From contig JACRDN010000014.1 of NCBI GenBank assembly GCA_016218575.1, positions 62,001-126,000 on the forward strand: a DNA stretch of 64,000 nt, in the 5' to 3' direction. Every line of letters starts with the position of its first letter. Position 1 is the stretch's first letter. Below, in pieces: positions 3,934 to 45,233 of this stretch. The notes under the pieces were generated by a model. The model did no database searches and was not told where the DNA came from. It saw nothing but the letters and a program-made list of their open reading frames with translations. This DNA is from Elusimicrobiota bacterium (GTDB taxonomy: Bacteria > Elusimicrobiota > Elusimicrobia > UBA1565 > UBA9628). The translations under genes and the position numbers were made by a program.

Positions 3934-5265
3934 ATGACGGCGCCCACCTTGGGCCGATTCAAGGCCCGGATCGGGATCCTTCTATGCCTCATCCTGGCCG
4001 CGGCCTCTGCGTTCCTGCCTTTGTTTTGGCTGGGCCTCCTGGGAGCCTGCGCGCTTGGGATATGGCGGCACTGTTCTTCCTTGGCCGCTTCTTTGCGCGA
4101 GATATTCGGGGTGGTCGAGCGCCTGGGTCTCGGCGACCGATCGGCTCGGGTGAGGCGCCTGCCCGCCGGCGACCCCGAGCTCGGGGAGTTGATCAATAAT
4201 CTGGCCGAGAAAATCTCGGTTTCCTGGTCCGAGTTCTCCAAGGAGCGGCTCCAGCTTTCCGCTGTGCTTTCCAATATAGCCGAGGCCATAGTGGGGGTGG
4301 ACTCCCACGGTCTCATCATCGCACTGAACCCCGCCCTCGCCGCGCTTTTCTCGGCGGATCGCGGAGCGGCTCTGGGGCGGCCCTTCGTGGAGATTTTGCG
4401 CCACGCCCGCTTGCAGGAGCTGCTCTCGGAGGTTATGAAGGAAGGGACCGGGAGAAGCGAGGAGGTGACGGTTTTCACACCAGAGGAGAAGATTTTCGAG
4501 GCCCATGCCGTGGCCTTGGTACTCGAGGGCCAAGGCCGCGGCGCCTTGATCGTCCTTCATGATATTACCCGTTTGCGTCGTTTGGAGAGGATGCGCCGGG
4601 AATTCGTGGCCAATGTGTCTCACGAGCTCAGGACTCCGCTTGCCGCGATCCGAGGCTTTGCCGAAACTTTGCGCGAGGGGGGGCTTAAGGACTCCGAGCA
4701 CGGGCCGGAGTTCGTGGAGGGCATCGAGAGGGAGGCGGAACGCCTCTCGGCCTTGGTGGAGGATCTGCTGGATTTGTCCGCCATCGAAGCCGGTCACCGC
4801 TTGCCGGTCAAGGTGCCTGTCTCGATCCTGGTCCTGGCCTGCGAGGCCGCGGCGAGCCTGGCCCCCATGGCCGAGCGAAGAAAAATCCGAGTGCATGTGG
4901 AGGCCGAGGCGGTTCCCATCGAGGTCAGGGCGGACCGTTCCCAGATAAAGCAGGTGCTTGCCAACCTCATCGACAACGCCATCAAGTTCAACCGCGAGCG
5001 AGGTCGGGTTGAAATTTCCGCGGCCGTGGAGGGGAAGTTCCTCAAGGTCGTGGTTTCGGATACCGGCCCCGGCATGGCCCGCGAGCATCTCCCGCGCGTC
5101 TTCGAGCGCTTCTACCGAGCGGACGACGCGCGCTCCCGGGAATTGGGAGGGACGGGCCTGGGCCTTGCCATCGTCAAGCACATCGTAGAGAGCCACGGCG
5201 GCTCGGCCGGGGTGGAAAGCGCTCCGGGAGAGGGCTCCTCGTTTTTCTTCACCCTTCCTCTGTAG
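3934..5265 (+). CDS. phoR: Phosphate regulon sensor kinase PhoR
   Basis: The 443-residue protein has two N-terminal hydrophobic segments (about residues 12-45) with almost no periplasmic loop, as in PhoR. A short linker, a PAS domain (about 105-215), a HisKA domain with H230 in the motif NVSHELRTPL, and a HATPase_c domain with the N box (NLIDNAIKFN), DTGPGMA and GTGLGLAIV follow. The small loop fits sensing through the Pst transporter and PhoU rather than a periplasmic ligand. The start codon abuts the phoB stop, so the two are co-translated. Confidence 0.92.
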   Translation: MTAPTLGRFKARIGILLCLILAAASAFLPLFWLGLLGACALGIWRHCSSLAASLREIFGVVERLGLGDRSARVRRLPAGDPELGELINNLAEKISVSWSEFSKERLQLSAVLSNIAEAIVGVDSHGLIIALNPALAALFSADRGAALGRPFVEILRHARLQELLSEVMKEGTGRSEEVTVFTPEEKIFEAHAVALVLEGQGRGALIVLHDITRLRRLERMRREFVANVSHELRTPLAAIRGFAETLREGGLKDSEHGPEFVEGIEREAERLSALVEDLLDLSAIEAGHRLPVKVPVSILVLACEAAASLAPMAERRKIRVHVEAEAVPIEVRADRSQIKQVLANLIDNAIKFNRERGRVEISAAVEGKFLKVVVSDTGPGMAREHLPRVFERFYRADDARSRELGGTGLGLAIVKHIVESHGGSAGVESAPGEGSSFFFTLPL

Positions 5266-7592: not shown

Positions 7593-8529
7593 CGGTCTCG
7601 AAAGCGGCGCCGGCCCGCGCGAGCAGGCCGGCGATCGGCTTTTCAAGCTCCTGCTCCTGGGCTTCGGGCTTTTCGTTGTCGCCCTGGCGCTGGCCCTGGC
7701 CTGCGAGCTGGCCGCCAAGTCCCTGAAGATATGGAAGGAGTTCGGCTTCTCCTTCCTATGGACCTCGGTCTGGGACCCGGTCGCTGAGCAGTTCGGGGCT
7801 CTCCCCTTCATTTACGGAACATTAATGTCCTCGGCTTTGGCCCTGGCCATCGCCGCTCCCTTGGGCATCGGCTCGGCCATCTTTCTGGCGGAGCTGGCCC
7901 CGAGGAAAATCTCGGACATATGCTGCTTTTTTATCGAGCTTCTGGCGGCCGTGCCGAGCGTGATCTTGGGGCTCATGGGCATCTTCATTCTGGTGCCCGC
8001 GGTGCGTTCGATCGAGCCGACGCTCACCCGGTTCCTGGGCTTTCTCCCATTCTTCCGCGGGGAGCCCTACGGCGTGGGACTGCTGACGGCCGGGGGCATA
8101 CTTGCCTTGATGATACTGCCTTATATCACGAGCATCACCCGGGAAGTCCTCTTGAGCGTGCCCCGGCCTCTCAAGGAGGGTATGCTGGCCCTTGGCGCCA
8201 CCCATTGGGAGACCGTGCGCCGCGTGAGCCTGCCCTACGCCCGCTCCGGCATCGCCGGGGCCGTGTTTTTGTCCCTGGGCCGCGCCTTGGGGGAGACCAT
8301 GGCCGTTACCATGGTGATCGGCAATGTTCCCCGCGTCTCCGCCTCGCTTTTGGATCCAGCCTACAGCATGGCCTCGGTGATCGCCAACGAGCTCTCCGAG
8401 GCCGTGGGGGACCTTCATTTGGAGGCCCTCATCGCGATGGGCTTGGCGCTCCTGGCGATCACGATCGTCATGAACGGTTTGGCCCGGCTTCTCATTGACC
8501 AGGCGGTCAAAAAGGGGGAGAGGGCCTGA
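7576..8529 (+). CDS. pstC: Phosphate ABC transporter permease PstC
   Basis: The 317-residue permease has six membrane helices and the permease EAA-type loop around LKEGMLALGATHWETV, which docks PstB. The chosen start is a TTG inside the end of pstS, with GAGGGA 5 nt upstream; the frame has no ATG before the first membrane helix. It ends in TGATG, sharing one base with the pstA start, which indicates coupled translation. It forms the inner-membrane channel with PstA. Confidence 0.94.
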   Translation: MKPSSDGLESGAGPREQAGDRLFKLLLLGFGLFVVALALALACELAAKSLKIWKEFGFSFLWTSVWDPVAEQFGALPFIYGTLMSSALALAIAAPLGIGSAIFLAELAPRKISDICCFFIELLAAVPSVILGLMGIFILVPAVRSIEPTLTRFLGFLPFFRGEPYGVGLLTAGGILALMILPYITSITREVLLSVPRPLKEGMLALGATHWETVRRVSLPYARSGIAGAVFLSLGRALGETMAVTMVIGNVPRVSASLLDPAYSMASVIANELSEAVGDLHLEALIAMGLALLAITIVMNGLARLLIDQAVKKGERA

Positions 8530-9383
8530 TGCCCGTCCGGGACTCGTTGAAAAAACGCCAGAGAGTCAACAAGATCATGTTCGCGGCCACGGCCGTTTGC
8601 GCCGGAGTCTCCATACTCAGTCTGTTCTGTATCCTGGGCTACATCGCTTATAAAGGCTTCTCCTCGCTCAGTTGGAGCTTCTTTACCCGCCTGCCCAAGC
8701 CCGTGGGGGAGACCGGAGGCGGCATCGCCAACTCCATCCTGGGCTCGGTCAAGATCGTGGGCTTGGCGAGCGCCCTGGGAATTCCGGTGGGGATCCTTGG
8801 CGGGGTTTACTTGGCCGAGTACGGCCGAGGCCTCGCGGGCTTCTGTATCCGCTACGCCGCGGACGTCTTGAGCGGCGTTCCCTCGATAGTCATAGGCATC
8901 TTCGCCTACGCATTGATCGTCATGCCCATGAAGCGCTTCAGCGCCTTGTCGGCAAGCGCGGCTCTTGCCGCCATCATGATCCCGATCGTTCTGCGCAACA
9001 CCGAGGAGTTCGTGCGCCTGGTGCCCCTGTCCATCCGGGAGGCGGGATTGGCCCTGGGCATCCCGCGCTGGAGAGTCATCCTCTTCATCGTCATCCCCAC
9101 GGCCGGCCGGGGCCTCATCACGGGAGCCCTCTTGGCTGTTTCCCGCATCGCGGGCGAGACAGCGCCCCTCATCTTCACCGCCTTCGGCAACCGCTTCTGG
9201 GACAACGGCTTGCTTGAACCTATGGCTTCGCTCCCGCACACCATATTCACCTACGCCATAGCCCCTTACGAGGACTGGCACCGCCAGGCCTGGGCCGCGG
9301 CCCTGATCCTCATGGGCTTGGTCCTGGCTATCAACGCCGGAGCCCGCTATTTTCTAAAGCCTTCCACGGGAGTTTCGCATTAA
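8529..9383 (+). CDS. pstA: Phosphate ABC transporter permease PstA
   Basis: The 284-residue second permease has six predicted helices and an EAA loop at SIREAGLALGIPRWRVI. Conserved PstA features are SILGSVKIVG near the start and SRIAGETAPLIFTAFGN in the second half. Its stop TAA is followed at once by the pstB ATG. With PstC it forms the heterodimeric translocation path. Confidence 0.94.
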   Translation: MPVRDSLKKRQRVNKIMFAATAVCAGVSILSLFCILGYIAYKGFSSLSWSFFTRLPKPVGETGGGIANSILGSVKIVGLASALGIPVGILGGVYLAEYGRGLAGFCIRYAADVLSGVPSIVIGIFAYALIVMPMKRFSALSASAALAAIMIPIVLRNTEEFVRLVPLSIREAGLALGIPRWRVILFIVIPTAGRGLITGALLAVSRIAGETAPLIFTAFGNRFWDNGLLEPMASLPHTIFTYAIAPYEDWHRQAWAAALILMGLVLAINAGARYFLKPSTGVSH

Positions 9384-10157
9384 ATGCCGATGATCCCAGA
9401 AGATAGAACTGTTTCCATGGAGGTCAAGGCGCTTCGGGCCGGATACGGCGCGCACGCCGTGATCAAGGACGTGAGCCTTTCGTTTTACGGCAAGCAGGTG
9501 ACCGCCATTATCGGGCCCTCGGGCCGCGGCAAATCCACCTTGATCCGGTGCCTCAACCGCATGCATGAGAACGTCCCCGGGGCCACGATGGGGGGGAAGA
9601 TACTCCTTGAAGGGAGAAGCGTCCTATCCCTCGACCCCGCGGTCTTGCGCCGCAAGGTGGGAATGGTCTTCCAGCGCCCCAACCCTTTCCCCACCATGAG
9701 TATTTCCGAGAACGTGGCCGCGGGCTTGGTCTTGAACGGGATCGGGGACCGCGGCAGGATCGCCGAGAAAGTCGAGGATAGCTTGCGCAAGGCCGCTCTC
9801 TGGGACGAGGTGAAGGATAAGCTCTCCGAGCCGGGCCTGGGCCTCTCCGGAGGCCAACAGCAGAGGCTTTGCATCGCCCGGGCCCTGGCTGTCGAGCCCC
9901 AAGTCCTTCTTCTAGACGAGCCCTGCTCGGCCCTCGATCCCATCGCGACCGCCCGCATCGAGGAGCTTCTGCTCGCGCTCAAGCCGCATTTGACCATAGT
10001 CATCGTCACCCACAACATGCAGCAGGCGGCCCGGGTGTCCGATTCCACCGCCTTCCTGCTCATGGGCGATTTGATAGAATTGAACCGTACGCACCAGCTG
10101 TTCACCAAGCCCTCCGACAAGAGGACAGAGGACTACATCACGGGCCGCTTCGGGTAA
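9384..10157 (+). CDS. pstB: Phosphate ABC transporter ATPase PstB
   Basis: The 257-residue ABC ATPase has Walker [10 protein letters not shown] (residues 44-52), a Q-loop in VFQRPNPFP, the signature LSGGQQQR (from residue 154), Walker B VLLLDEP and the switch His in VTHNMQQA. These are diagnostic of PstB (PNPFP after the Q-loop, NMQQA). The usual Cys in Walker A (GCGKST) is Arg here, which should be tolerated. It powers phosphate import and, with PhoU, signals to PhoR. Confidence 0.96.
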
Positions 10158-10160
10158 ATC

Positions 10161-10850
10161 ATGACGCTCAAAAGGCATTTCGACGAGGACTTGGAGGGGC
10201 TTCGGGCGAGCCTGCTCGAGATGGGATCGCTCTGCGAGGAGATGATCCATTATGCTGTCAAGGAGCTCACCGAGCGCCAGGAGTCCTACGCCCAGGACGT
10301 GCTCCGCGGCGAGGAGAAGGTCAACCGCCTCCACATAGAGATAGACGAGCTCTGCCTGCGGCTCATCGCGCTCCACCAGCCCGCGGCCGGGGACCTGCGC
10401 CTCATCGCCGCGGCCTTGAAGATCAACTCGGACCTCGAGCGCATCGGAGACCAGGCCGTCAACATCTCGGAGACCGCCGCCTATCTCTGCCGCCTTCCCA
10501 AGATCAAGCCGGGGGACATTCCCCGCATGGTGGAGCTAGCCGTCGAGATGCTCAAGGACAGCCTCGACGCCTTCTCCCGCCGCGACGTGGAGCTGGCCCG
10601 GTCGGTCATCGGCCGCGACGACGAGGAGGACCGCCTCAAGAGTCAGACCTTCAACGAGCTCGTCGCGCTCATGCAGTCCGACGCCTCCACCATCCAAAGG
10701 GCCCTCGACGTGATCCTCATCGCCAGGAACCTCGAGCGCATCGCCGACCACGCCACCAACATAGCCGAGGACGTGATCTTCATGGTCCTGGGCAAGGACA
10801 TTCGTCACCACGCCGAGGAGCAGGAAAGCGGAGGGGCTTCCATCGGCTAG
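10161..10850 (+). CDS. phoU: Phosphate signalling protein PhoU
   Basis: The 229-residue all-helical protein has the tandem PhoU repeat: two three-helix bundles, each with the E/DxxxD metal-binding pattern. Examples are IAAALKINSDLERIGDQAVN in the first half and RNLERIADHATNIAEDV in the second. It starts 3 nt after pstB and closes the operon. The family links Pst transport state to PhoR and keeps the regulon off when phosphate is plentiful. Confidence 0.95.
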   Translation: MTLKRHFDEDLEGLRASLLEMGSLCEEMIHYAVKELTERQESYAQDVLRGEEKVNRLHIEIDELCLRLIALHQPAAGDLRLIAAALKINSDLERIGDQAVNISETAAYLCRLPKIKPGDIPRMVELAVEMLKDSLDAFSRRDVELARSVIGRDDEEDRLKSQTFNELVALMQSDASTIQRALDVILIARNLERIADHATNIAEDVIFMVLGKDIRHHAEEQESGGASIG

Positions 10851-10863
10851 CCATGCGAGCTCG

Positions 10864-10899
10864 ATGACGGTCAAATACTATTTTCACACCTTCGGGAGC
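10864..10899 (+). repeat. Left boundary repeat: displaced native 5' end of mtaB
   Basis: Reading from the ATG gives MTVKYYFHTFG, the start of a MiaB/MtaB-type methylthiotransferase, which then runs into unrelated sequence and stops at 10960-10962. It aligns with 20037-20072 at 28 of 36 bases, with 14 bases identical in a row. It probably marks the left attachment site. A second open frame ending at the TAG of 10994-10996 (ending RGNNVMLA) may be another gene scrap that I cannot identify. Confidence 0.65.
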
Positions 10900-10992
10900 G
10901 GGACGCACTCCACTGCGGCGGGAACGTCAGTTTCTGCTGCGCCTGAAGCTCGACCGCGTTAAGACCACGCGCGGCAACAACGTGATGCTCGC

Positions 10993-11496
10993 CTAGGGCC
11001 TGCTGTGGGAGGGCTCTCCGATGGTCACGATGCCTTCTTTGACCAAGAGGTCGAAGATTGAGATCTGGGGTAGATGGAACGAGTCGCAGATGAGCTTGAC
11101 GGCCTTGTTGTCCTCGCTGACGACGATTGCCTTCTCGGACGCTACCAAGAGGCCCTGCTGCTCTTCGGCGTGATTCAAGGCAAAGGCGCCCAGCCACGGA
11201 TCGGAATCGTAGGGTCTATTCACTGTCGCCGCGTCGGGGAGCTTCGTCAGAATGCGCGTCAGTGCGTCTACCTCTTTTAGGCTCGGGTGTCGAAATGTCG
11301 CCTTGTGGTCCTGAGCCCAGTCCTTCATCCCGAAGTTCAGGCACAATTCGTTGTACACTTCGTGCGGGCTGATGATTCGGCCATCGGAGATAAGCCTCTC
11401 GATCGCTTTGCTGATTGCGGGATACTTGGACGTGGAATAGCGCCTGATGAGCTCAGACCAAGAGCAGGCGTCGATGAAGTAGATTGTTTTGGTCAC
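10993..11496 (-). CDS. DUF4411 PIN-like toxin
   Basis: The 167-residue protein begins IYFIDACSW, with the first acidic residue (D9) of a PIN-like nuclease. The later DPWLGAFAL and VSEDNKAVKLI segments supply the other conserved acidic positions of the DUF4411 family. Such proteins are predicted RNases and typically pair with an XRE-ImmA protein, as here. Translation starts with GTG, overlapping the upstream partner's stop (GTGA), so the toxin depends on translation of the antitoxin. It acts in the cytoplasm. Toxic activity is inferred from family and context. Confidence 0.72.
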   Translation of the reverse strand: MTKTIYFIDACSWSELIRRYSTSKYPAISKAIERLISDGRIISPHEVYNELCLNFGMKDWAQDHKATFRHPSLKEVDALTRILTKLPDAATVNRPYDSDPWLGAFALNHAEEQQGLLVASEKAIVVSEDNKAVKLICDSFHLPQISIFDLLVKEGIVTIGEPSHSRP

Positions 11497-12650
11497 CGGG
11501 CTAAGAGCCTACCAAGCGTCGAGAGATGCTCGGGCTTCGTTCCAAGAAAGGACGACGCTGAGCCGATGTCGAGAACACCCTTTCTTAGCCCACCCAGAAC
11601 CGTGCTGACAAAATGGTTCCCACAGCGGTTCAGGCACCGCTTCGCGGAGATTGCCTCCGCCGGACTTCGACCGAAACTCTTTTCTGGCTTGGCCAACTGC
11701 ATGAACTCAACCAAGTCGGAGTATTGCTGCCGCTGAATCCAACCGAGCACGAGCAGCCTGGTCATTAGAGCGTAACGGCTGACCTTGAAGGAACGTGCGG
11801 TCTTCTCAATGACAGGAGCGGCAGCATTGGGGCTAGCAGGCAGCCGCTTTAAGGTGGCTTCTTGAGCGGCCAGCAACTCAGGTGGCATGAGGACGGCGCC
11901 CGCAAACGTGTTACACCAGCCCTCAATCTGTTGCTGGTCTGTGCCCTCTAGGAACGGGTTGCACAAGCTTGACTGGTGCAGCGCCAGATGCGCGGCCTCG
12001 TGGAAGAGGGTGAAAGCCTTGCCAGTTGCCGAGTCGCCCGTGCCGATAACGATGCACGTCGGGTGATCGCTAATAGAAAGCCCGCGAAACTCATCATTGG
12101 GCAGCTTCAGTTGAAAGACAGCCGCCCCCAGCCCTTCAATCCTCGCTCTCCACTGCTTCAGAGCAACGTTCTCGTTCACCCAGCCGAGCTGTTCGGCTAC
12201 AGATACGCCAAGCGCTTCCCGTGCGCTGGCCGCGGCGCGAGCCGGGTTCACGTTCAAATGAGCGGAAAGGCCGAACTTGGGCGGGGTCTCACCGGTGGCC
12301 GAGAGCGCCTCGCCCAAGAGATATTGCAGCCGCCTTGCGGTGGCGATGGCCTCACGGCCGAGCAGCGAGATGTCCCCGGCCGGCTTCGAGGACCTCCTGT
12401 CAGGGGGGGTCTTCTTTGTTGGCGGAGTCTTGCTGCGAAAGAAAGCCGATATCGGCTGCCGGTACTTTTCCGCGATCTTTATGAGGTCGCTGTAAGTAAG
12501 GTCGGCCTGACCCTGTTCCAGGGCGTATAGGTGGCTATCGGGGATCTCAAGCTTCGATGCCGCGTCAGGCACCGTCCAACCCTGTTGTTCTCGCGCCCAC
12601 CGGAGCATGTCCGAGGAAAGACGTACCGAAAAGGAGGGGGCCCTAGCCAT
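11493..12650 (-). CDS. XRE-ImmA/IrrE metallopeptidase antitoxin
   Basis: The 385-residue protein has an N-terminal XRE helix-turn-helix (about residues 12-70, with EQQGWTVPDAASKLEIP) and a central ImmA/IrrE zinc peptidase domain. The HExxH motif is H217-E-A-A-H221 in LFHEAAHLAL, and a downstream acidic ligand lies in QQIEGWCNTFAGAVLMP. The family cleaves or controls a repressor or partner, and as the upstream gene of a DUF4411 toxin it is the likely antitoxin and autorepressor. A small N-terminal linker is rich in Lys, Pro and Arg. Confidence 0.8.
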   Translation of the reverse strand: MARAPSFSVRLSSDMLRWAREQQGWTVPDAASKLEIPDSHLYALEQGQADLTYSDLIKIAEKYRQPISAFFRSKTPPTKKTPPDRRSSKPAGDISLLGREAIATARRLQYLLGEALSATGETPPKFGLSAHLNVNPARAAASAREALGVSVAEQLGWVNENVALKQWRARIEGLGAAVFQLKLPNDEFRGLSISDHPTCIVIGTGDSATGKAFTLFHEAAHLALHQSSLCNPFLEGTDQQQIEGWCNTFAGAVLMPPELLAAQEATLKRLPASPNAAAPVIEKTARSFKVSRYALMTRLLVLGWIQRQQYSDLVEFMQLAKPEKSFGRSPAEAISAKRCLNRCGNHFVSTVLGGLRKGVLDIGSASSFLGTKPEHLSTLGRLLAR

Positions 12651-12746
12651 GTGAAGGGACCGCCAGGCCGTGGCTGTATCGAATCGCTTTTGCGATATCG
12701 TGCTGTTGTGCTGCTCGGGACGCGGTCTCCATGAACGGCTTTATTC

Positions 12747-14243
12747 CTATCGCTCCTTGCGCATCTTGGCGATAAAATCAGCAAGCAAATCATTTATCTG
12801 GTCAAAGTTTTCGTGCGCGATGATCAAGAAGGGGATATTGTTTTCCTTCGCATATTCTGCCTTAACCCGATCCCTTTCCAAACCGCCTTTGTAATCCGAG
12901 GTATCCCCGCCAAAACTAATGGGCTTATAATGCTGCACCCCGTGATACTCGATTAGACCAATACGGCCATTGATCTTAACGCAAAAATCGTAATGCAGCT
13001 TTCTTTTCGCGGGTAGTCCGACCGGGGAGTACTGCCATTCATAATCAATCCCGTTCTCTTTCAAATGGGATTCAATGACACCCTCGCCACGGGGCATACG
13101 ACACCTTTTGCAGCCCTGTCCCTGGAGATGATGCCCCGCCGATTGCAGAAAATCTCCATGAAATTTGCACGTTATGACGACCCGGTCGCGCATTGTTGTG
13201 AATACGGTTTTTTCATAGGAGTATTTATTCCCGTGGACCCTTTTGGCACGACTTGCAAATGTTTCGGTATTGGTTAATTTCCCAGCGCACCGTGGACAAC
13301 CAGCTCCGAGACGCCAATGATTTCCCGGAGCTTGGTTAAAATCGCCATGGATGGGACAGGTTATTATGACCTTTGTTTTCGAATCCACATAGTTAACTTT
13401 TTCGTAAGAATACTTTGGCCCATGCCTATCGCGCGCTTTTTTCAAAAACTCGTCGAGAGTCGATCGTTTTTTGTCAGCCTGTTTTTCTCTTGCACATTTA
13501 TCACATCCCCGCCCTCGCAAGTGATCGGTGGGACGCTGCTGAAAATCCCCATGCTGAGAGCAGGTTATTGCGATAGCGGTCCGCTGGTTGACATAGACTG
13601 CATTCTGGTAGGAGTATAGTTCCCCATGTATGGCTCTTGCCCTCGTGATAAATTCTATTTGGGTTAGCCGTACAATACCCGCACACTTCGGGCAACCGCT
13701 TCCTCCAAGATGTGATTTAGGGGTCTGCAAGAAATCCCCGTGCTTTTGGCAGGTTATATATGCCTTTGCCCGTAACCCTCTGTAGTTGACGTTCCGATAT
13801 GAATATTTTTCTCCATGCTCGATTTTTGCTCTGGCAATAAAATCTTCTTTCTTCCCCAGCTTCGCGTTGTTGGCACATTGCGGGCACCCACACCCTGAAA
13901 AGTGGTCGCGCGGAGTTTGGGGAAAGTCTCCATGCCCGGTGCAGGTAATGACGACGTTCTTCTCAATACTTACGTATTGAACCTTGTCGTATTTATACCT
14001 GTCGCCATGAATTTGGCGTGCGCGTTTTATAAATGTATCGGTATCGATTATTCTCCCGGCACACCGTGGGCATCCCTGCCCACGCAGATGAGCGATAGGC
14101 CTCTGTTGAAAGACTCCGTGATTGGGACAAATAATCGGCAATTTCTCCTGGGCGTAAACATGAGTTACCTTGGAGTAATTGTACTTATCCCCATGCCGTG
14201 CCTTGGCTCTCTCGATAAATTCGTCAGGTGTTAGTCGCCGCAT
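12747..14243 (-). CDS. Six-repeat zinc-finger protein with C-terminal PD-(D/E)xK-like nuclease
   Basis: The 498-residue protein is built from six tandem units of about 60 residues. Each has a helix (FI.RA...HG.KY.Y..V) and a probable zinc knuckle of the form ITCxxHGDFxQxPxxHxxGxGCPxCA, with conserved C, H, H, C, C. Such units resemble DUF723-type modules found in phage and giant-virus nucleases. The last 110 residues contain HYDFCVKINGRIGLIEYHG, a D-x(n)-ExhG pattern typical of Vsr-like and related PD-(D/E)xK nucleases, then a Lys/Arg-rich helix. I start it at the ATG, not the TTG three codons upstream. It is AT-richer than its neighbours and so probably transferred. A DNA-targeting homing or defence nuclease is inferred. 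Confidence 0.65.
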   Translation of the reverse strand: MRRLTPDEFIERAKARHGDKYNYSKVTHVYAQEKLPIICPNHGVFQQRPIAHLRGQGCPRCAGRIIDTDTFIKRARQIHGDRYKYDKVQYVSIEKNVVITCTGHGDFPQTPRDHFSGCGCPQCANNAKLGKKEDFIARAKIEHGEKYSYRNVNYRGLRAKAYITCQKHGDFLQTPKSHLGGSGCPKCAGIVRLTQIEFITRARAIHGELYSYQNAVYVNQRTAIAITCSQHGDFQQRPTDHLRGRGCDKCAREKQADKKRSTLDEFLKKARDRHGPKYSYEKVNYVDSKTKVIITCPIHGDFNQAPGNHWRLGAGCPRCAGKLTNTETFASRAKRVHGNKYSYEKTVFTTMRDRVVITCKFHGDFLQSAGHHLQGQGCKRCRMPRGEGVIESHLKENGIDYEWQYSPVGLPAKRKLHYDFCVKINGRIGLIEYHGVQHYKPISFGGDTSDYKGGLERDRVKAEYAKENNIPFLIIAHENFDQINDLLADFIAKMRKER

Positions 14244-14363
14244 AGAAACCAACTTACTTCAATCAAATCCTCGCATTGACCAGAAATTCTTAAACGCTGC
14301 TCCGCTCTGCTGTCCACCGCCGCCTCGTCGAGTGATTATGCTGGCCAGCCGTAATGCTGTCTC

Positions 14364-14636
14364 TCAAAGTTCTGACCATCTCGGCCGACCGGGGATAGGC
14401 CGGTCCTTCAAGCCGTCGATGCCCTCGCGAGCGAAGCGGGAGCGCCACTGCTTGACCGTGTTGCGGCTGATCTCAAGCCGTTGCGCGATGTAGAGATTGG
14501 ACTGTCCGGCGTCGGCCCGGAGCACGATCTCGGCGCGTAGCCAGTAGCGCCTTTTCGGATGATACTCGCGGATTTGGCGAAGCTCTCGCCGTTCTGGGAT
14601 GCTGAGCTTGATCTGAACCAACGGGAGCCGGGGCAT
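14364..14636 (-). pseudogene. Truncated IS630-family transposase (N-terminal HTH only)
   Basis: About 90 residues from MPRLPLVQIKLS remain, with the helix-turn-helix NLYIAQRLEISRNTVKQWR followed by EGIDGLKDRPIPGRP, the typical N-terminal domain of IS630/Tc1-like transposases. A stop comes soon after GRPRW, and the DDE catalytic domain is missing. I see no matching terminal inverted repeats nearby, so this is a scrap of an insertion sequence. Confidence 0.7.
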
Positions 14637-14886
14637 AAGGTATTCAATTCTACATCTAATGGTCAAATCTTTTCCAGGTTTTTGGAGTTTGCGGGGCTGA
14701 GTTCCATTGGTTTTTCCATGCTTCCCGTCTCGAGAGTGCGAGTTGATCGGGGCGTTTTCGCGGGGTTTGTCGAATAGGAAGTGGGGGAGGCCGATGTCTT
14801 GGCGGGAAATTGCCCGGCCCAAGCACATGTCTAAGTGACGGCTTGTCTTGGAGGGGAAATAGGCCTGTGAAAAGGGGTGATTCAAA

Positions 14887-15332
14887 CGGATAGCTTAGTA
14901 GCGGGAGCTGCGAACGAACGGGTGGCGACCATCTGGCAAAGCCTCTGGCGTGTCAGAACACCGGCGATCGGAGTGGTGAAAATGAAAAGCGTTGGAAACT
15001 TTGAGCCTTATTCGCCCGCCTCTCAGTCCGCTTCGCGGGCTTCGCCTCCCGACCCCGCTCCCTCAACCATGAGGGTTGATGGACCGGGGTCGGGAGGACG
15101 GCGGGCGAAACGGCGGGAGTGAACGTCGGAAAAGGGAGGGCTGGAGCACATATATAAGTGAGGGGAACTTGGTTTAGATAGGGGACTTAAAAAATGAGGC
15201 AGCGTAAGCTTCTCGATGAGAAATCGGAAAAAAATGACCGGAAAAGGCGGTGCGAAATGGCGGGGTGAAACGATTAGTAAGTGGAGGGTTGTCCCGGAAA
15301 TGGACGGCTGGATCGCATTATAGAGTGGGGAG
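14887..15332. other. Gene-poor spacer within the island
   Basis: I see no convincing gene here. An 81-codon frame at 14877-15122 has no recognisable content and is crossed by a long hairpin. Two loosely similar 40-base stretches (near 15127 and 15293) share GGCTGGA, CAT, ATA and AGTG.GGGA blocks, the second lying just before the replication-relaxation start; they may be diverged promoter repeats. The sequence is purine-rich on the plus strand. Confidence 0.4.
15011..15109. repeat. Long imperfect inverted repeat (hairpin)
   Basis: The outer arms TTCGCCCGCC (15011-15020) and GGCGGGCGAA (15100-15109) are fully complementary. A second perfect 13-bp stem pairs CCTCCCGACCCCG (15045-15057) with CGGGGTCGGGAGG (15085-15097), and TCAACC/GGTTGA closes the tip. 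A small CCGC-TTC-GCGG hairpin sits in the 5' side bulge. No T-run follows. It could be a structured RNA, an element end or a replication/transfer structure; I cannot tell which. Confidence 0.6.
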
Positions 15333-16174
15333 GTGCTGAGCTTGGGAATCGGGAAATCGGCGAGGGTGGAGCTTCGGGAACGAGACCTTGAAATCCTATC
15401 GGCGCTGGAGAAATGGGGCGTCCTGGGGCTGGCTCAATTGGACGGCCTGGCGTTCAAGGAAGACGCTCCGGCCGAGGAAAGGGTCAGGCTATTTTTCAAC
15501 GGAATGGACCGGCGGATGTACACGTTGGCCTGCTACAAAAGGCTCCGGGGCCTGGAACGCGCGGGCCTGATCCGGGCACATTCCTACCTCAACCACCCCA
15601 GGATTTACGGCTTGGCGGAGCGCGGCCATCGGCTGCTCTTGGAACGCGGCCGGGCCAAGCTCTTGGGCTTCCGACGCGGCATCTCGGAGACGCTCTTGAC
15701 GCATGAGCTGACGGTCAATGCAGTCGGTCTCATGATCGAACAGTTCCTGGGGCTGCTCGCGCGACCGGAGCACGAGCGCAAGGTCCGGTCGGCCGATCCG
15801 CAGGCCAAAGGCAAGCCGGTCCGCGCGACTGTTTCCGATCTCTGGATCCCGGACCAGGAGCATCCCAGGCCGATCGAGGTCGAGCTGAGCCAGAAGGCTG
15901 AGGCTCGCTACAAGGAGCTTTGGGCAGTTTTCGCGACAAGTATCCTCACGGCAGTCAGGTGCTCTACCTCGTGGGCTGGCTAATCTACGTGACGAGCCTG
16001 AAGGCGTTCCGCGAGTCGCTTGGGCGCTGCGCGTTCATCAACCAGTCGTACTATTGGCCTCGCAGCATTCGCTTGGCGTCGCCGGCTTCAGAGCCCTTGC
16101 CCGTGGGGCTGGCCGCGGCGGCCACTCCGGCGGCTGGCGTACCGGTCATCGCCTCGGAGGTGCCGCGGGTCTGA
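15333..16174 (+). pseudogene. Replication-relaxation family protein, frameshifted
   Basis: The first 196 codons encode a winged-helix protein of the replication-relaxation (Replic_Relax) type: DLEILSALEKWGVLGLAQL, then an RRMYTLACYKRLRGLERAGLI helix pair, and the IEVELSQKAEARYKELW segment near the end. At about 15920 the frame is lost. The next reading frame continues with GSFRDKYPHGSQVLYLVGW, which restores the family pattern if one G is added to the TTTGGGCAG run. Without repair the product ends after 216 residues; with it, about 280. Such genes sit in conjugative and plasmid replication modules. A sequencing error is the alternative. Confidence 0.65.
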
Positions 16175-16389
16175 TGGATCAGCGCCCCGTGGACGCCGGA
16201 ATCGAGGACGCGCGGCAATTCGCCGCGCGCCTTGAGGTCGGCGACACCTACGGCCAGAAGGAAGCGTCCCTTGAGGACCTTGCCCTGCTACTGGCGCTCT
16301 TTGCCCGCGCCAGGACGCGCTTGGATGCCGAACATGATAATTCCCCTATCAAGTCAGTATTAAGCTCGACGGAGGAACTTGATAATTGA
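16174..16389 (+). CDS. Small hypothetical protein coupled to the replication-relaxation gene
   Basis: The 71-residue frame starts in TGATG, sharing a base with the stop of the preceding gene, a sign of translational coupling. It is rich in Ala, Leu, Asp and Arg and contains EDLALLLALFARARTRL, which should be helical. There is no signal peptide or known motif. Its last codons overlap a direct repeat, so its 3' end may be regulatory DNA. Confidence that it is expressed is modest. Confidence 0.4.
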   Translation: MDQRPVDAGIEDARQFAARLEVGDTYGQKEASLEDLALLLALFARARTRLDAEHDNSPIKSVLSSTEELDN

Positions 16390-16400
16390 CCCCTATCAAG
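16343..16400. repeat. CCCCTATCAAG direct repeats with an inverted repeat
   Basis: CCCCTATCAAG occurs at 16343-16353 and 16390-16400, 47 bp apart. The second copy forms an inverted repeat with CTTGATA (16378-16384) across a 9-nt gap. This looks like a regulator-binding region or a pair of replication iterons ahead of the XRE/Fic operon. Confidence 0.45.
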
Positions 16401-16461
16401 CTATAGCAAGTCTCATATATCCATGGTCAGTTTAGATATTTAAAGTCATATTAATTAACCA

Positions 16462-16490
16462 TTGACAAATATATGTTCGTATATTAAACT
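16462..16490 (+). promoter_or_regulatory. Promoter with overlapping operator for the XRE/Fic operon
   Basis: TTGACA (16462-16467) and TAAACT (16485-16490) are 17 nt apart. Between them AATATA (16468-16473) and TATATT (16480-16485) form an inverted repeat around TGTTCG. This is the layout expected for autorepression by the XRE protein encoded next. Confidence 0.55.
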
Positions 16491-16519
16491 TATGGTGCGG
16501 ATCGGGAGCGAAGCGCGCC

Positions 16520-16987
16520 ATGAGAAAAGAACAACTGCCCATTTCCAGCGAACACAAGCTGGATCAGATAATGTCCTACGGACGGAGAGCCCCGGAGGGG
16601 CTGGAAGCCATGCCGGTTCATGCTTTCATCCGTATGGCACGGCATGCGCTCCGGATGACGCAGGCCCAGCTTGCCAAGCGAGCCGGCATTCCGCAATCGC
16701 ATTTAGCCGTGATCGAGACCGGGAAGCGGGACTTCAAACTAACGACTCTGCGGAAGATCTATTCGGCTTTGGGCGGCAACCTGATGGTCGTCGGCAGGTT
16801 CCGTAAGAAGCCCGCTACCCTAGTCTCGGAACGAATTCGCGAGGTCGCGCGTAAAAAGATCATGCGCGTTGCCGGGTCCATGGCGCTGGAAAAGCAGCTT
16901 CCCGATGACGCGATGATCAACAAGTTCATCAAGGCGGAGGAAGATAAGCTGCTCCGTGAAGCTTCGACCGATATCTGGGAGGATTGA
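16520..16987 (+). CDS. Mobile mystery protein A, XRE-type antitoxin/regulator
   Basis: The 155-residue protein has a central XRE helix-turn-helix (about residues 35-92: ALRMTQAQLAKRAGIPQSHLAVIETG) and a basic helical C-terminus. This is the organisation of mobile mystery protein A (TIGR02612-type), which always precedes a Fic-domain protein on mobile elements. The stop overlaps the next start (TGATG). It probably represses the operon and neutralises the Fic partner. A homologous stand-alone XRE gene occurs at about 35.5 kb. Confidence 0.78.
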   Translation: MRKEQLPISSEHKLDQIMSYGRRAPEGLEAMPVHAFIRMARHALRMTQAQLAKRAGIPQSHLAVIETGKRDFKLTTLRKIYSALGGNLMVVGRFRKKPATLVSERIREVARKKIMRVAGSMALEKQLPDDAMINKFIKAEEDKLLREASTDIWED

Positions 16988-17598
16988 TGGTTCGATTTGA
17001 CACACCGGAGGGAGCGACGCCTATCGAAGACGCTTCGGGCTTACTCGTCGAAGGGGTTGTCACCTACGCGGACTTGAGCGAGAAGGAAACCGAAAATATC
17101 ATAAGGGCTGTCGATGAGCATTTGCGTCTCCGAAAACGGCGCATGGATGTCTGGCTGACGGAGGATTATGTCCGCCTCGTGCATCGGGACATGTTCGACC
17201 GAGTTTGGGAATGGGCAGGCCGCTACAGGGACGCGGAGTTGAACATCGGTGTCGCGGCGTCCCGCGTCAGGGAGGAGATCGCCAAGCTTTGCCAGGACGT
17301 GGCCTTCTGGGACGGTCAGAAGGAGAATCCCTTGCCCGTCTTGGAACGCGCCGTGCGGCTGCATCACCGGCTCGCTTGGATACACCCGTTCCCGAACGGG
17401 AACGGCCGCCACGCGCGCCTCATGTCCGATATCTATCTGCGCGTCTACCGCCATAAGCTTCCGGATTGGCCGAGTTCGGCGCTGGGCGGGCCGGGCGACC
17501 TCCGTGCAGCTTATCTCGACGCCTTGCGGAAGGCAGACAGCGGCGACTTCGGGTCGCTTGTTGAATACACCAAGAGGTTCTTGCCAACTGCAAAGTGA
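16987..17598 (+). CDS. Mobile mystery protein B, Fic-domain protein
   Basis: The 203-residue protein carries the Fic motif HPFPNGNGRHAR with catalytic H133, the signature of AMP-transferases that modify Ser, Thr or Tyr hydroxyls. The N-terminus, with GATPIEDASGLLVEGVVTYADL, matches the conserved start of mobile mystery protein B (TIGR02613-type). No clear inhibitory (S/T)xxxE(G/N) helix is visible inside the chain, which would leave inhibition to the XRE partner. It acts in the cytoplasm; the target is unknown. I use the ATG that overlaps the upstream stop. Confidence 0.82.
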   Translation: MVRFDTPEGATPIEDASGLLVEGVVTYADLSEKETENIIRAVDEHLRLRKRRMDVWLTEDYVRLVHRDMFDRVWEWAGRYRDAELNIGVAASRVREEIAKLCQDVAFWDGQKENPLPVLERAVRLHHRLAWIHPFPNGNGRHARLMSDIYLRVYRHKLPDWPSSALGGPGDLRAAYLDALRKADSGDFGSLVEYTKRFLPTAK

Positions 17599-17608
17599 GA
17601 GCGGAAAA

Positions 17609-18214
17609 GTGAAAGGCATCGAGAGTCTGACGAAGTTCATGCGGCTGGGGTGCGTCTACCGACGCGAGGAACTTGAGGGCGTCTCGAAATCCCTTAGCCG
17701 GGACCTCAAGGGCCTCATCGAGAGTCGGAAGTTGCTGAGAGTGGGTCCAGGCATCTATTGTCGGCCAAGAAAGAACGTTATCGGCCTGACACCCCCTAAA
17801 CATCGTGACGTGATCCGTGTTTTTCTACGGACGGACGATTTTCTCATCACCTCGTATAATTGGTTCACCAACCTGGGGCTGGGCTTGACGCAGATGTACA
17901 ACTGCGACCTTGTCTACAACCACAAGCGAGGCGGTTACTTCGTCCTCGGCAATCTGCGGTACCACTTCCGTGTCATTCGTGCTTATCCCAAGAAATTGAG
18001 CATCGAATACCTCGTGGTGGACCTCCTGAACCACGTCAGGAAACTGCCCGACGATACTGGGCGCGCGGTCAAGAATCTGCCCTCGAACATGAACAGGTTC
18101 AATCGCAAGAAGCTTTCGACTTGTCTCGAACGGTATGGGAATTTTCATGCCAAGAGAATTCTTGGGCCGATGCTGCGAAGTAATGGATCGGCGGGGAAGC
18201 CAGAAGGGGAATAG
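17609..18214 (+). CDS. AbiEi/DUF6088-like winged-helix regulator
   Basis: The 201-residue frame (GTG start 10 nt after the Fic gene; an ATG at 17639 is the alternative) has an N-terminal winged-helix region, ELEGVSKSLSRDLKGLIESRKLLRVGPGIYCRPR, typical of AbiEi-type type IV antitoxins and DUF6088 proteins. A mixed domain follows that contains FLITSYNWFTNLGLGLTQ and LSIEYLVVDLLNHV. The usual nucleotidyltransferase toxin (AbiEii) is not next to it; instead a recombinase fragment follows. It may regulate another gene or be an orphan left by deletion. Confidence 0.55.
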   Translation: MKGIESLTKFMRLGCVYRREELEGVSKSLSRDLKGLIESRKLLRVGPGIYCRPRKNVIGLTPPKHRDVIRVFLRTDDFLITSYNWFTNLGLGLTQMYNCDLVYNHKRGGYFVLGNLRYHFRVIRAYPKKLSIEYLVVDLLNHVRKLPDDTGRAVKNLPSNMNRFNRKKLSTCLERYGNFHAKRILGPMLRSNGSAGKPEGE

Positions 18215-18216
18215 CC

Positions 18217-18282
18217 ATGAGCACGATGATTTGGGCGGCGTATGAGCGCGTCTCGACCGAGGAGCATACAGAGGAAGGTTGA
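18217..18282 (+). pseudogene. N-terminal fragment of a large serine recombinase
   Basis: Twenty-one codons encode MSTMIWAAYERVSTEEHTEEG and then stop. This is the first strand and catalytic-serine loop of a resolvase/invertase domain (YxRVSTEEQ pattern; nucleophile S13). The rest of the catalytic domain is gone. It starts 3 nt after the AbiEi-like gene, the normal arrangement in an element operon. It pairs with a C-terminal fragment about 1.6 kb downstream. Confidence 0.68.
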
Positions 18283-18309
18283 TTTTGTACAATCGTTCCT
18301 CACCTACGA

Positions 18310-19056
18310 ATGAAATTCCTAGTCCTCGTTTCCTCCATCATTTTTCTCCTGGCCTGCACGGTGTTTGGCGAGCTTCTGGTCAAACGACTTGGAAGAAACA
18401 TAGGGACAACCCTGATCCTGACCTGCCTCGGCGTGCTCCTCTCAGGTTCGTTTCTAAGGGTGCTCCGGGGATTCGCTGAACGGACATCCACTCCACGTCC
18501 AAGACTGGGATCTTTCTGGGGACTTGGGGTCGGACTAGCGTTTGGATTGCTGGCGAGTCTTCTCTCGGGACTCGCATTCTCTTGGGCACTCGGTCACCAC
18601 GTCGATTACTCGCAGTTCTCGGATAACTTTGGATTGAAGGCCTTGGGAAATATCTTTCCTGCTGCAGTCGAGGAGACTGCCTTTCGAGCGGGGGTGGTTC
18701 ACTTCGTCTCTGCTTTCTTCAGCCCAAGCCTAGGCCTGGCTGCGGGGAGTGTTCCCTTTGGAGTGATCCATTTCTTTGGGATGCTCTTTGGAAATCCGGC
18801 GACGATTCAACACGCTCTCGGCGTGAGCGTGGCAGGACTTCTCCTCTCTCTCCTCTATCTTCGATTTGGCATCACTGCCGCGGTCGGGTGTCATTGGCTT
18901 TGGAACACGCTTTGCGGCTCATGGGTAAAAGCACTGGAACTTCCAAAATCCGGTGGAGTCCAAATATTCGAAGGCGCTTGGACCACGATCATTGTTCTAT
19001 CCGCGCTCTCATTTGCTCTTTGGAAGACTTCTCGGCCTGCCTGTTTCTCGCGATAA
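18310..19056 (+). CDS. CPBP (CAAX/Abi) intramembrane metalloprotease
   Basis: The 248-residue membrane protein has about seven helices and all CPBP motifs: E121-E122-T-A-F-R126 (EExxxR), FGVIHF with H154 (FxxxH), and H195-W-L-W-N199 (HxxxN). The family includes Rce1-type CAAX proteases and bacteriocin-immunity or abortive-infection proteins. It sits where the middle of the serine recombinase should be, followed 3 nt later by a second membrane protein, so both probably came in together. The substrate is unknown. Confidence 0.75.
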   Translation: MKFLVLVSSIIFLLACTVFGELLVKRLGRNIGTTLILTCLGVLLSGSFLRVLRGFAERTSTPRPRLGSFWGLGVGLAFGLLASLLSGLAFSWALGHHVDYSQFSDNFGLKALGNIFPAAVEETAFRAGVVHFVSAFFSPSLGLAAGSVPFGVIHFFGMLFGNPATIQHALGVSVAGLLLSLLYLRFGITAAVGCHWLWNTLCGSWVKALELPKSGGVQIFEGAWTTIIVLSALSFALWKTSRPACFSR

Positions 19057-19059
19057 AAA

Positions 19060-19767
19060 ATGCGAGCTCCTGATCCCGGAATGGCCAGACGAGTGGACTG
19101 GGAAAGTTTCGGAAGACTTTTTGTCCTCAGCGCCCTGCTTCTTGTTCCTCTGCTGATCGCTGCCGCCACCCATGGCGGGTTCTTATGGTTCGCCGCTGGA
19201 GCCATCGTCTGGGTTATGTCGGTGGCAGCCAAGATCCCCCTTGCCAGATTCCTCCATAGGGGACTGGGAGAGTCGGCGACGCCCGAGACGCGAGGCGCCG
19301 CGCACGGCGTTCTGTCCGCGGCATGCGAGCTTGGCTGCGCGGCAGCATGTTTCGTATGGCTTCTTGCCGATGGAAGCGCATGGACTGCCGCTGCCTTTGG
19401 CGCAGGGGCGGGGTGGATTGAGGTGGTGGCGCTTCTTATCCTGAGTATTCGTTCAGGAGCCAAGGGTCCCGAGAGCGACGCAGAGCCGCCATGGCATGTG
19501 CGATGGACCTTCCTCATCGAGAGAGCCGGCGCAATTATAGGTCATACGGGCTCCAGGGGGCTCATATGGCTTGCTGTCATTCGAAACCCGTGGTTCGCCC
19601 TTCCCGCTGGCATAGGCTTCGCCATCGTGGACGGCTTGGCCGTCTATGGCTCAGTCCAAAAATGGGAGTGGCTTGAGTGGGAAACTTGGAGCCGCTTCTA
19701 CGGAATGATCACGGCTATAAGCGTGCTCGAGCTACTGCTTTTCATCGCATTCGCCCAAGGAACATAG
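19060..19767 (+). CDS. YhfC-like putative intramembrane metalloprotease
   Basis: The 235-residue protein has about seven hydrophobic helices. Polar residues inside helices match the YhfC pattern: E121 in AGAGWIEVVALL, E154-R155 with H162 in ERAGAIIGHTGSRGLIW, and Asp in GFAIVDGLAVYG. YhfC proteins are distant relatives of CPBP and similar membrane peptidases. An ATG at 19081 is an alternative start. Adjacency to the CPBP gene suggests a functional pair. The peptidase activity is a prediction. Confidence 0.5.
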   Translation: MRAPDPGMARRVDWESFGRLFVLSALLLVPLLIAAATHGGFLWFAAGAIVWVMSVAAKIPLARFLHRGLGESATPETRGAAHGVLSAACELGCAAACFVWLLADGSAWTAAAFGAGAGWIEVVALLILSIRSGAKGPESDAEPPWHVRWTFLIERAGAIIGHTGSRGLIWLAVIRNPWFALPAGIGFAIVDGLAVYGSVQKWEWLEWETWSRFYGMITAISVLELLLFIAFAQGT

Positions 19768-19892
19768 GAGATCACGGGCTGATGATGCAAGAAGAGTAGA
19801 CCTGAAGTTCCGTGCTCAGAGACGCGCTGGATCATGCGCTACGAGTCCCAAAACGTTCCACTGATTTCGGCGACAGGCCAGGAGTCCTGAAC

Positions 19893-20018
19893 TTGTATAA
19901 TACGGCGCCCGGCATGAGCGCCGCGGAGCGCCAGGAGTGTCTCAAGCTCCTAGGTTCCCGGGTCGAGATTCGGGCCAGCGGGGATGTGCGCTTTATTGGG
20001 ACGCTTCCCCTTTTATAA
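19893..20018 (+). pseudogene. C-terminal fragment of a large serine recombinase
   Basis: The end of an open frame reads MSAAERQECLKLLGSRVEI, then a short strand, Gly-Asp-Val and a strand ending GTLPL before TAA. This helix-strand-Gly-strand pattern is the usual tail of large serine recombinases (coiled coil, then ...LL..RV.....G.V...G.LP). It lies immediately before the right boundary of the island, where an integrase gene normally sits. About 400 central residues are missing between this and the N-terminal fragment. Confidence 0.5.
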
Positions 20019-20036
20019 GTCGCCCAACGGGAGGAC

Positions 20037-20072
20037 ATTACAGTCAAGTATTTCTTTCACACCTTCGGCTGC
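20037..20072 (+). repeat. Right boundary repeat: element-borne 5' end of mtaB
   Basis: This copy encodes TVKYFFHTFGC and is in frame with the rest of mtaB. Relative to the left copy most codon differences are synonymous (ACG/ACA, AAA/AAG, TAC/TAT) with one Tyr-to-Phe change, and the ATG position is ATT. It is the predicted right attachment site. Confidence 0.6.
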
Positions 20073-21299
20073 CGGGTCAACCAGTACGAGACCCAGGCCT
20101 TGCGTGAGCGCCTTCTAGCGGGAGGCCCCTCCGAGGGGGTCGAGCGTTGGAGCGCGGCGGACGTCTGTCTCATCAACACCTGCACCGTGACCCGGGAGGC
20201 CGACCGGGACGCCTTGAGGCTTATCCGCCAGATCGCACGGCGAAATCCCGGGGCGCGCCTGGTGGTGACGGGGTGCCTGGCCTCGCGCGATCCTGAGCTA
20301 ATCCTTCGGGAGGCTCCCGCGGCCCAGGTCGTGGCAAACAAGGACAAGGACTTGATCCCGTCCATGCTCGGCTGTCAGAGCGCCCCGGCCTTGGCCGGCC
20401 TGAGCGGCTTTCACGGGCGCAGCCGGGCTTTTGTCAAGATCCAAGACGGCTGCAATATGCACTGCGCCTATTGCATTATCCCCTCGGTTCGGTCCGAGCT
20501 TTCCTGCAAGCCATGGGAAAGCCTCGAGGCCGAGGCCGCGGCCCTAGTCCGAAACGGCTACCGGGAGCTGGTTCTCTGCGGCATCCGTTTGGGCCGCTAC
20601 CTTGTGCAGGACCGGTCGGGCAGGCGAGTGGACTTCGTGGAGATGTTGAAGAGGCTCCTGGCCTTTCCCGGCGATTTCCGCGTAAGGCTCTCTTCCATCG
20701 AGGTGACGGATATTACCGACCGGTTCATCGCCCTCATGGCCGAGTCGCAAGGAAAGCTTTGCCCCTCCCTCCATGTCCCGATTCAGTCTGCCTCAGAGGC
20801 GGTTTTGAAAAGGATGGGGCGCTGGTACTCTGCGGCCTTCTACGCCCGGCGCGCGGCGGCGGTGCGCGATCGCCTGCCCCGGGTCGGGCTTTTCACCGAC
20901 GTGATGGCGGGGTTTCCGGGGGAGACGGAGGCAGAGTTTGAGGAGAGCATGGCATTCGTTCGCGCCATGGGCTACGCCGGGCTTCACGTTTTCCGCTATT
21001 CCAGGCGCGCTGGGACTCCGGCGTCCCGGCTCAAGGATCAGGTTCCGGAGCCAGTCATCCTCGAGCGCGCCGAGAGGATGCGTGGCCTCGACCGGGAGCT
21101 TCGGTCGCGCTTCGCCGAGCGAGCCGTGGGCTCCCGGCGCCGGGTGCTCTTGGAGGGGGAAGGGTCCGAGGAGGGGTTGGCCGAGGATTTCCTGGCGCTC
21201 AAGCTCGATTTCCGTCCAGGCCCGGGGTTTCATGACGTTCTCGTGACCAGCGCTTCCGGTCCCAGGGCCTACGCCTGCGTCCAGGGACTTAAGTCCTAG
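20037..21299 (+). CDS. mtaB: tRNA methylthiotransferase, MtaB/MiaB-like
   Basis: The protein of about 420 residues has an N-terminal MTTase domain with cluster ligands C12, C49 and C80, a radical-SAM domain with C139-x3-C143-x2-C146 (CNMHCAYC), and a C-terminal TRAM-like region. The family adds a methylthio group to N6-threonylcarbamoyladenosine at position 37 of tRNA. C12 is required, yet the first standard start codon (TTG at 20100) lies after it. The only plausible start before C12, after the in-frame stop at 20016, is ATT at 20037, aligned with the ATG of the displaced copy; GGGAGG ends only 2 nt before it. Function is firm, the start is not. Confidence 0.85.
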   Translation: MTVKYFFHTFGCRVNQYETQALRERLLAGGPSEGVERWSAADVCLINTCTVTREADRDALRLIRQIARRNPGARLVVTGCLASRDPELILREAPAAQVVANKDKDLIPSMLGCQSAPALAGLSGFHGRSRAFVKIQDGCNMHCAYCIIPSVRSELSCKPWESLEAEAAALVRNGYRELVLCGIRLGRYLVQDRSGRRVDFVEMLKRLLAFPGDFRVRLSSIEVTDITDRFIALMAESQGKLCPSLHVPIQSASEAVLKRMGRWYSAAFYARRAAAVRDRLPRVGLFTDVMAGFPGETEAEFEESMAFVRAMGYAGLHVFRYSRRAGTPASRLKDQVPEPVILERAERMRGLDRELRSRFAERAVGSRRRVLLEGEGSEEGLAEDFLALKLDFRPGPGFHDVLVTSASGPRAYACVQGLKS

Positions 21300-21321
21300 C
21301 GGATTTCGGGCTTTAAGGCCC

Positions 21322-21351
21322 TTGCGCGGCCGCGGGCAATATCCATATAAT
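21322..21351 (+). promoter_or_regulatory. Promoter for the HIT gene
   Basis: TTGCGC (21322-21327) and TATAAT (21346-21351) are separated by 18 nt. The predicted transcript begins about 29 nt before the HIT start codon. A weak GGGC-TTTAA-GGCCC hairpin just before may end the mtaB transcript. Confidence 0.5.
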
Positions 21352-21386
21352 GTTGGCAGGCTTGACGCCGGTCGTCAGCTCTTTCA

Positions 21387-21728
21387 ATGCCCGATTGCCT
21401 GTTTTGTAGAATAATTCAAAAGGAAATTCCCGCTCAGCTGGTTTTTGAGGATGACCGGACCGTTGCCTTCAAGGATGTCAATCCCCAGGCTCCGACCCAT
21501 CTCCTCATCGTGCCCAAAAGGCACATCGCCGGCCTTTCGGATTCCACGGACGAGGACGCGGCTTTGCTGGGTCATATCCAGAGGGTGGCGGCGCGCCTGG
21601 CCCGAGAGGGGAATTTGACAGCGGGTTTCCGGGTAGTGGTCAACAACGGCCGTGGCGCCGGGCAGAGCGTGGATCATCTGCACTACCATCTCCTGGGCGG
21701 CCGCGGCATGAAGTGGCCGCCGGGATGA
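21387..21728 (+). CDS. HIT-family nucleotide hydrolase (HinT type)
   Basis: At 113 residues it has the normal HinT length. It begins CLFCRIIQKEIPA and ends with the catalytic histidine triad in DHLHYHLLGGRGMKWPPG. HinT-like enzymes hydrolyse purine nucleoside phosphoramidates and aminoacyl-adenylates in the cytoplasm. The CxxC near the N-terminus can bind zinc in related proteins. No ribosome-binding site is obvious. Confidence 0.92.
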   Translation: MPDCLFCRIIQKEIPAQLVFEDDRTVAFKDVNPQAPTHLLIVPKRHIAGLSDSTDEDAALLGHIQRVAARLAREGNLTAGFRVVVNNGRGAGQSVDHLHYHLLGGRGMKWPPG

Positions 21729-21777
21729 ATTCGGTAACTGTCACCAAAATAGCGAAAAAAGGTGGTGAACGAGCTTA

Positions 21778-21975
21778 ATGGTATTTGTGAAATTGCGGGA
21801 AGGAGAGGGCGTCGAGGAGGCCCTCCGCCGTTTCAAGCGCGAATGCGAGCGCAACGGCGTCTTGAAAGAGATCAAGAGACGGGAGTTTTACGTTTCCCCC
21901 GGCATCAAGCGCAAATTGAAGGCCGCGGAAGCGCGCCGCAAGATGCGCCGGGCCAAGAGGCGGCGAGTCCCCTAG
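21778..21975 (+). CDS. rpsU: Ribosomal protein bS21
   Basis: The 65-residue protein is very basic and matches bS21 from start (VKLREGEGVEEALRRFKREC) to its Arg/Lys-rich tail. It binds the 30S platform near the anti-Shine-Dalgarno helix. It opens the macromolecular-synthesis operon rpsU-dnaG-rpoD; dnaG starts 4 nt after its stop. An upstream GGTGGTG may act as ribosome-binding site. Confidence 0.95.
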   Translation: MVFVKLREGEGVEEALRRFKRECERNGVLKEIKRREFYVSPGIKRKLKAAEARRKMRRAKRRRVP

Positions 21976-21979
21976 GAGC

Positions 21980-44155: not shown

Positions 44156-44167
44156 TGAGGAGGAGTT

Positions 44168-45205: not shown

Positions 45206-45233
45206 TTTTCAGGTTATCGAGGAGGTGCAAGGT

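Follow-up and report, generated by a model that had tools for sequence, protein, structure and literature searches.

A probable free-standing homing endonuclease gene with six treble-clef zinc repeats and a Vsr-like nuclease domain in a variable island of an Elusimicrobiota genome

The analyzed window, a stretch of 64,000 nucleotides from an Elusimicrobiota bacterium (contig JACRDN010000014.1), contains a variable island in which a protein of 501 amino acids with an array of zinc repeats and a C-terminal nuclease domain is encoded (Table 1). The open reading frame is full length and possibly starts with a TTG codon at position 14252, or else with an in-frame ATG at 14243, which corresponds to residue 4. 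An earlier, sequence-only reading of this DNA had given the span 12747-14243; the open reading frame exists as described, but the upper end of this span is the internal ATG. The same reading had described the gene as AT-richer than its surroundings, which holds with a GC content of 0.48 at positions 13001-14000 compared to about 0.62 outside the island.

Table 1. Positions of the nuclease gene, its predicted domains, and its genomic context in the window
Feature	Position	Strand	Description or basis
Variable island, about 9.2 kb, holding the gene (context)	10851..20099	.	from phoU (ends at 10850) to the miaB-like/dnaG/rpoD block
Toxin-antitoxin-like pair	10993..12650	minus	Pfam; DUF4411 protein (10993-11496) and HTH + M78/IrrE protein (11493-12650)
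Probable free-standing homing endonuclease gene	12747..14252	minus	six treble-clef repeats and Vsr/EDxHD-like nuclease, 501 aa
Repeat 1 (aa 7-68)	14049..14234	minus	repeat alignment and profile match
Repeat 2 (aa 69-132)	13857..14048	minus	repeat alignment and profile match
Repeat 3 (aa 133-195)	13668..13856	minus	repeat alignment and profile match
Repeat 4 (aa 196-263)	13464..13667	minus	profile match and AlphaFold2 model of aa 196-501
Repeat 5 (aa 264-326)	13275..13463	minus	profile match and AlphaFold2 model of aa 196-501
Repeat 6 (aa 327-390)	13083..13274	minus	profile match and AlphaFold2 model of aa 196-501
Nuclease domain (aa 383-501) with E390, D422, E435, H441, D461, and K464	12750..13106	minus	AlphaFold2, Foldseek, conservation

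In relatives whose flanking regions were fetched, phoU and miaB/dnaG are kept, and the genes of the island are absent beside them except for one mmpA homolog. Among the 44 family genomes, phoU is present in 24 and dnaG in 40. A search for an empty site or a gene-free allele with the same flanks found none, as the family genomes do not carry the neighboring genes and no genome of the same genus is among the matches. The pair beside the gene, noticed earlier as a toxin-antitoxin pair, is toxin-antitoxin-like according to Pfam. Over their length, homologs of its M78 protein do not exceed 31% identity, and none of them marks a syntenic allele. A nucleotide search with the island yielded no match in plasmids. 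Further contents of the island are partial open reading frames and a weak DUF6088 match. On the minus strand at 14364-14885, an IS630-type transposase is represented by its N-terminal (HTH) portion, with no catalytic part following; this fragment lies upstream of the nuclease gene at a distance of 112 bases. At 16520-17598, the island encodes the mobile mystery proteins A and B, an HTH and a Fic protein, with TIGR02612 below and TIGR02613 above the cut-off; an mmpA homolog with 51% identity adjoins miaB in one relative (locus L091:4792-5256).

Residues 7-390 of the protein consist of six repeats of about 62 amino acids each with pairwise identities of 42-56%. A profile made from these repeats has exactly six matches in the protein and thereby recovers all of the six units of about 60 residues that had been recognized before. 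The Pfam family DUF4379, a probable treble clef zinc finger, matches five stretches of the array (E 3.4e-12), and DUF723 matches three repeats (E 1.8e-5). The repeats follow the pattern CxxH...H...GCxxC. Over 304 distinct repeats of relatives, the Cys and the His of the CxxH motif are conserved in 89% and 84%, respectively, and both Cys residues of the CxxC motif in 100%. The likely zinc ligands predicted from these alignments are the CxxH motif between two strands and the GCxxC motif at the N-terminus of the next helix. This predicted set is complete in all six repeats, which is consistent with the formation of zinc sites. The C-H-H-C-C positions originally proposed stand as a conserved Cys/His set, but one His, which is found in 87% of the 304 repeats, probably has a structural role outside the ligand set. 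An AlphaFold2 model of residues 196-501 has a mean pLDDT of 87 and a pTM of 0.43, the placement of the domains relative to each other being uncertain. Each modeled repeat consists of a helix, two strands with the CxxH motif between them, a short helix, and the CxxC motif opening the next helix. This order is as expected for a treble clef, and the original label 'zinc knuckle' is therefore too narrow; the model together with the CxxH and GCxxC motifs points to fingers of the treble-clef type instead.

The nuclease domain was modeled alone together with 11 relatives using AlphaFold2 (pLDDT 88, pTM 0.81). In a Foldseek comparison of this model with the PDB, Vsr has the highest TM-scores among the listed matches (1cw0, 0.66; 1vsr, 0.59; both with a probability of 1.00) at a modest E-value of 7e-3; the next matches are Bax1 and Holliday-junction resolvases, which belong to the PD-(D/E)xK superfamily. 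The model thus supports the C-terminal nuclease fold suggested at the outset as well as the modular fusion of a repeat array with a Vsr-like nuclease. Vsr itself is a stand-alone mismatch repair enzyme and does not have this repeat array. Fold comparison of the four-domain model yielded only general PD-(D/E)xK matches (Hjc, TnsA), and no PDB chain was matched by sequence with either the whole protein or nuclease profiles. Given these empty sequence searches and the modest Foldseek E-values, the designation 'Vsr-like' rests on the fold and the active-site residues.

The residues E390, D422, H441, and D461 occur in the order E-D-x-H-D. Of 99 non-redundant relatives, 91 have the complete set, and E435 and K464 are conserved to the same degree. 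The nuclease core had first been described as D...ExHG. This core is present, but its His (H437) is not conserved, as the same column in relatives is mostly occupied by Asp (71%) or Gln (23%); the His that is conserved, H441, belongs to the following 'xQH'. The E-D-x-H-D pattern is shared with the founding EDxHD homing endonuclease I-Bth0305I (3R3P), in which a Vsr-like nuclease is combined with an extended region for DNA binding (PMC3943268); the correspondence of residues is by pattern, without a structural superposition or a sequence match.

Relatives of the protein are found mainly in phages. The best PHROG matches are phrog_559 (3.8e-95), 681 (endonuclease), 9084 (homing endonuclease), and 7140 (intron encoded nuclease). 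A nucleotide search with the gene gave no match in phages. The repeats were matched in 1014 out of 50,697 phage records, and 383 records have the nuclease domain; the family is thus large, and it has hardly been touched by biochemistry. Within the phylum, the nuclease domain is sporadic and was matched in three other genomes of 341. A search for homologs with differing repeat counts, proposed in the sequence-only reading, was successful: for 99 non-redundant nuclease domains, array size ranges from one to seven detected repeats with three as the commonest number, some of the open reading frames being partial. A full-length relative with seven repeats is encoded on an Azospirillum plasmid, where its gene adjoins a site-specific integrase. 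The array also occurs in fusion with T5orf172/GIY-YIG domains (loci L018 and L042, above the T5orf172 cut-off) and with other PD-(D/E)xK-like domains (loci L017 and L048). Occurring with several nuclease types, the array is a portable module; in the 501-aa protein, Pfam gave no match to a T5orf172 or GIY-YIG domain. Two five-repeat members that lie side by side in a phage contig (locus L121:2492-3745 and 3797-5083) look like a recent tandem duplication, with differences between their repeats mainly at the variable positions, and four successive open reading frames of the family, all bearing the nuclease, form a cluster of duplicates in one viral contig (locus L099:837-4343).

Several relatives are located in introns or between gene pieces. 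The gene for the terminase large subunit of Staphylococcus phage Quidividi is interrupted by an intron and harbors a three-repeat member; both the intron and a 'VSR homing endonuclease' are annotated in the record. In Bacillus phage BSP9, a three-repeat gene with the nuclease is flanked by pieces of the terminase large-subunit gene, and the same holds in phage PSU4 for a relative with a nuclease match only. In PMBT8, a nuclease-matching gene is located between two pieces of the tape-measure gene, where a match to a group I intron stayed below the threshold. Proteins of phrog_559, the best-matching PHROG, have been described as VSR-domain proteins encoded in group I introns that interrupt genes for the terminase large subunit (PMC11878797). 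An Rfam intron search at positions 8000-22000 of the window gave no match; this is a weak negative, as the search also missed annotated phage introns and gave a match only at locus L223.

The closest described architecture is that of homing endonucleases encoded in phage group II introns, which carry 3-5 domains similar to CapR, DUF4379, and DUF723 followed by an EDxHD/Vsr-like domain. These proteins, with UniProt hits in the thousands, were reported in 2025 as a large outgroup of EDxHD/Vsr homing endonucleases that had gone unrecognized (PMC12350094). Repeat domains of about 60 amino acids and a C-terminal nuclease domain of about 100 amino acids are common to these proteins and the one described here. 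In contrast, the present gene has six repeats, is free-standing in a bacterial chromosome, and has no detected intron. The architecture has thus already been described and is abundant, which makes it less unusual than first assumed. The Vsr endonucleases of phrog_559 share the nuclease residues with the 501-aa protein, but the members in Quidividi and BSP9 are intron-encoded and have three, more degenerate repeats. Related CapR/DUF723/DUF4379 arrays with varying repeat number are also found in T5orf172 (GIY-YIG) homing endonucleases, whose nuclease domain is unrelated; these arrays have been described as recombining, DNA-binding 'beads on a string' (PMC10448857).

The gene is likely a free-standing member of the EDxHD/Vsr-like outgroup of homing endonuclease genes. 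A homing function had been one of two alternatives offered earlier, and it is supported by the intron-located relatives in phage terminase genes and by the two studies on such proteins (PMC12350094, PMC11878797). In the proposed mechanism, the six treble-clef repeats would bind successively along an extended DNA site; contact with DNA repeat by repeat is suggested by analogy with the family. The Vsr-fold nuclease would then cut or nick beside the bound site, the E-D-x-H-D residues acting as a metal-dependent active site. With the gene-bearing allele as the template for repair of the break, the gene would be copied into alleles without it, provided that this copy is active. The gene would most likely have arrived in the chromosome with a phage or another mobile element, and its seat among toxin-antitoxin genes may reflect a variable region that tolerates insertions.

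An alternative that appears unlikely is that the gene is left over from a decayed prophage or mobile element, as a homing endonuclease gene that is no longer homing. This possibility fits the location in a variable island, where partial open reading frames and the N-terminal fragment of the IS630 transposase are found, whereas the full-length reading frame with all ligands and active-site residues intact argues against it. The second function offered in the sequence-only reading was defense, in which the host would keep the protein as a domesticated nuclease cutting incoming phage or plasmid DNA with a target that is absent from its own genome. The protein would then act in a defense island, similar to a restriction factor with sequence specificity. 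Toxin-antitoxin genes adjoin the intact reading frame, and nucleases derived from homing endonuclease genes are known to act against rival elements in ICP1/PLE (PMC10448857). However, PADLOC gives no family match for the 501-aa protein, no conserved partner genes were seen, and the nuclease is sporadic in bacteria but common in phages, from which most of the relatives found originate. A role in defense is therefore considered very unlikely. A DNA-binding regulator that uses the repeats and has an inactive nuclease domain has precedents on both sides of the fusion: the Vsr-like RAP domain of FASTKD4 has the Vsr fold, and nuclease function was not detected (PMC11879112), and CapR, which is a related finger, is a repressor (PMC10448857). 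Nevertheless, all four E-D-H-D residues are present, and this explanation is regarded as extremely improbable.

For the homing endonuclease, the array might be a modular reader, in which each repeat reads a short DNA segment via a few variable residues (42, 44, 46, 47, 50, and 52) and the number of repeats determines the length of the site. These residues would, in this hypothesis, sit on the second strand and the following turn. The most variable repeat positions were identical in two halves of the data (52, 46, 50, and 42, with 58, 27, 28, and 40). Positions 42-52 are richer in Asn, Ser, Thr, and His than the exposed positions of helix 1, where Lys and Glu prevail. Clustering of the eight most variable positions was not significant, with at most four per 11-residue window (p 0.43). 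The two adjacent five-repeat genes of locus L121 differ at 23 of 30 variable positions compared to 79 of 264 others, with the variable positions selected on these very data. For this reason, a comparison of repeats between genes at the same and at different places was partly circular, and it was also too small. Overall, modular reading is judged to be quite unlikely. If true, the variable residues would set the recognized sequence, and the family would amount to a natural zinc-repeat nuclease that can be re-coded. The coexistence of long arrays, with six repeats in the present protein and seven in the Azospirillum relative, and short ones with two to three repeats makes the family well suited for testing site length against repeat number and for finding the residues that set specificity.

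Two minor features of the window lie apart from the gene. A low-GC patch (0.41-0.48) at 44001-46000 coincides with open reading frames at 44168-45205 and 45165-46580, to which no function was assigned. Within the island, a near-perfect 24-base hairpin with 92% complementarity and a 5-base loop is located at 15045-15097. Related sequences occur elsewhere in the contig and in the genomes of several relatives, and the hairpin possibly represents a small dispersed repeat element.
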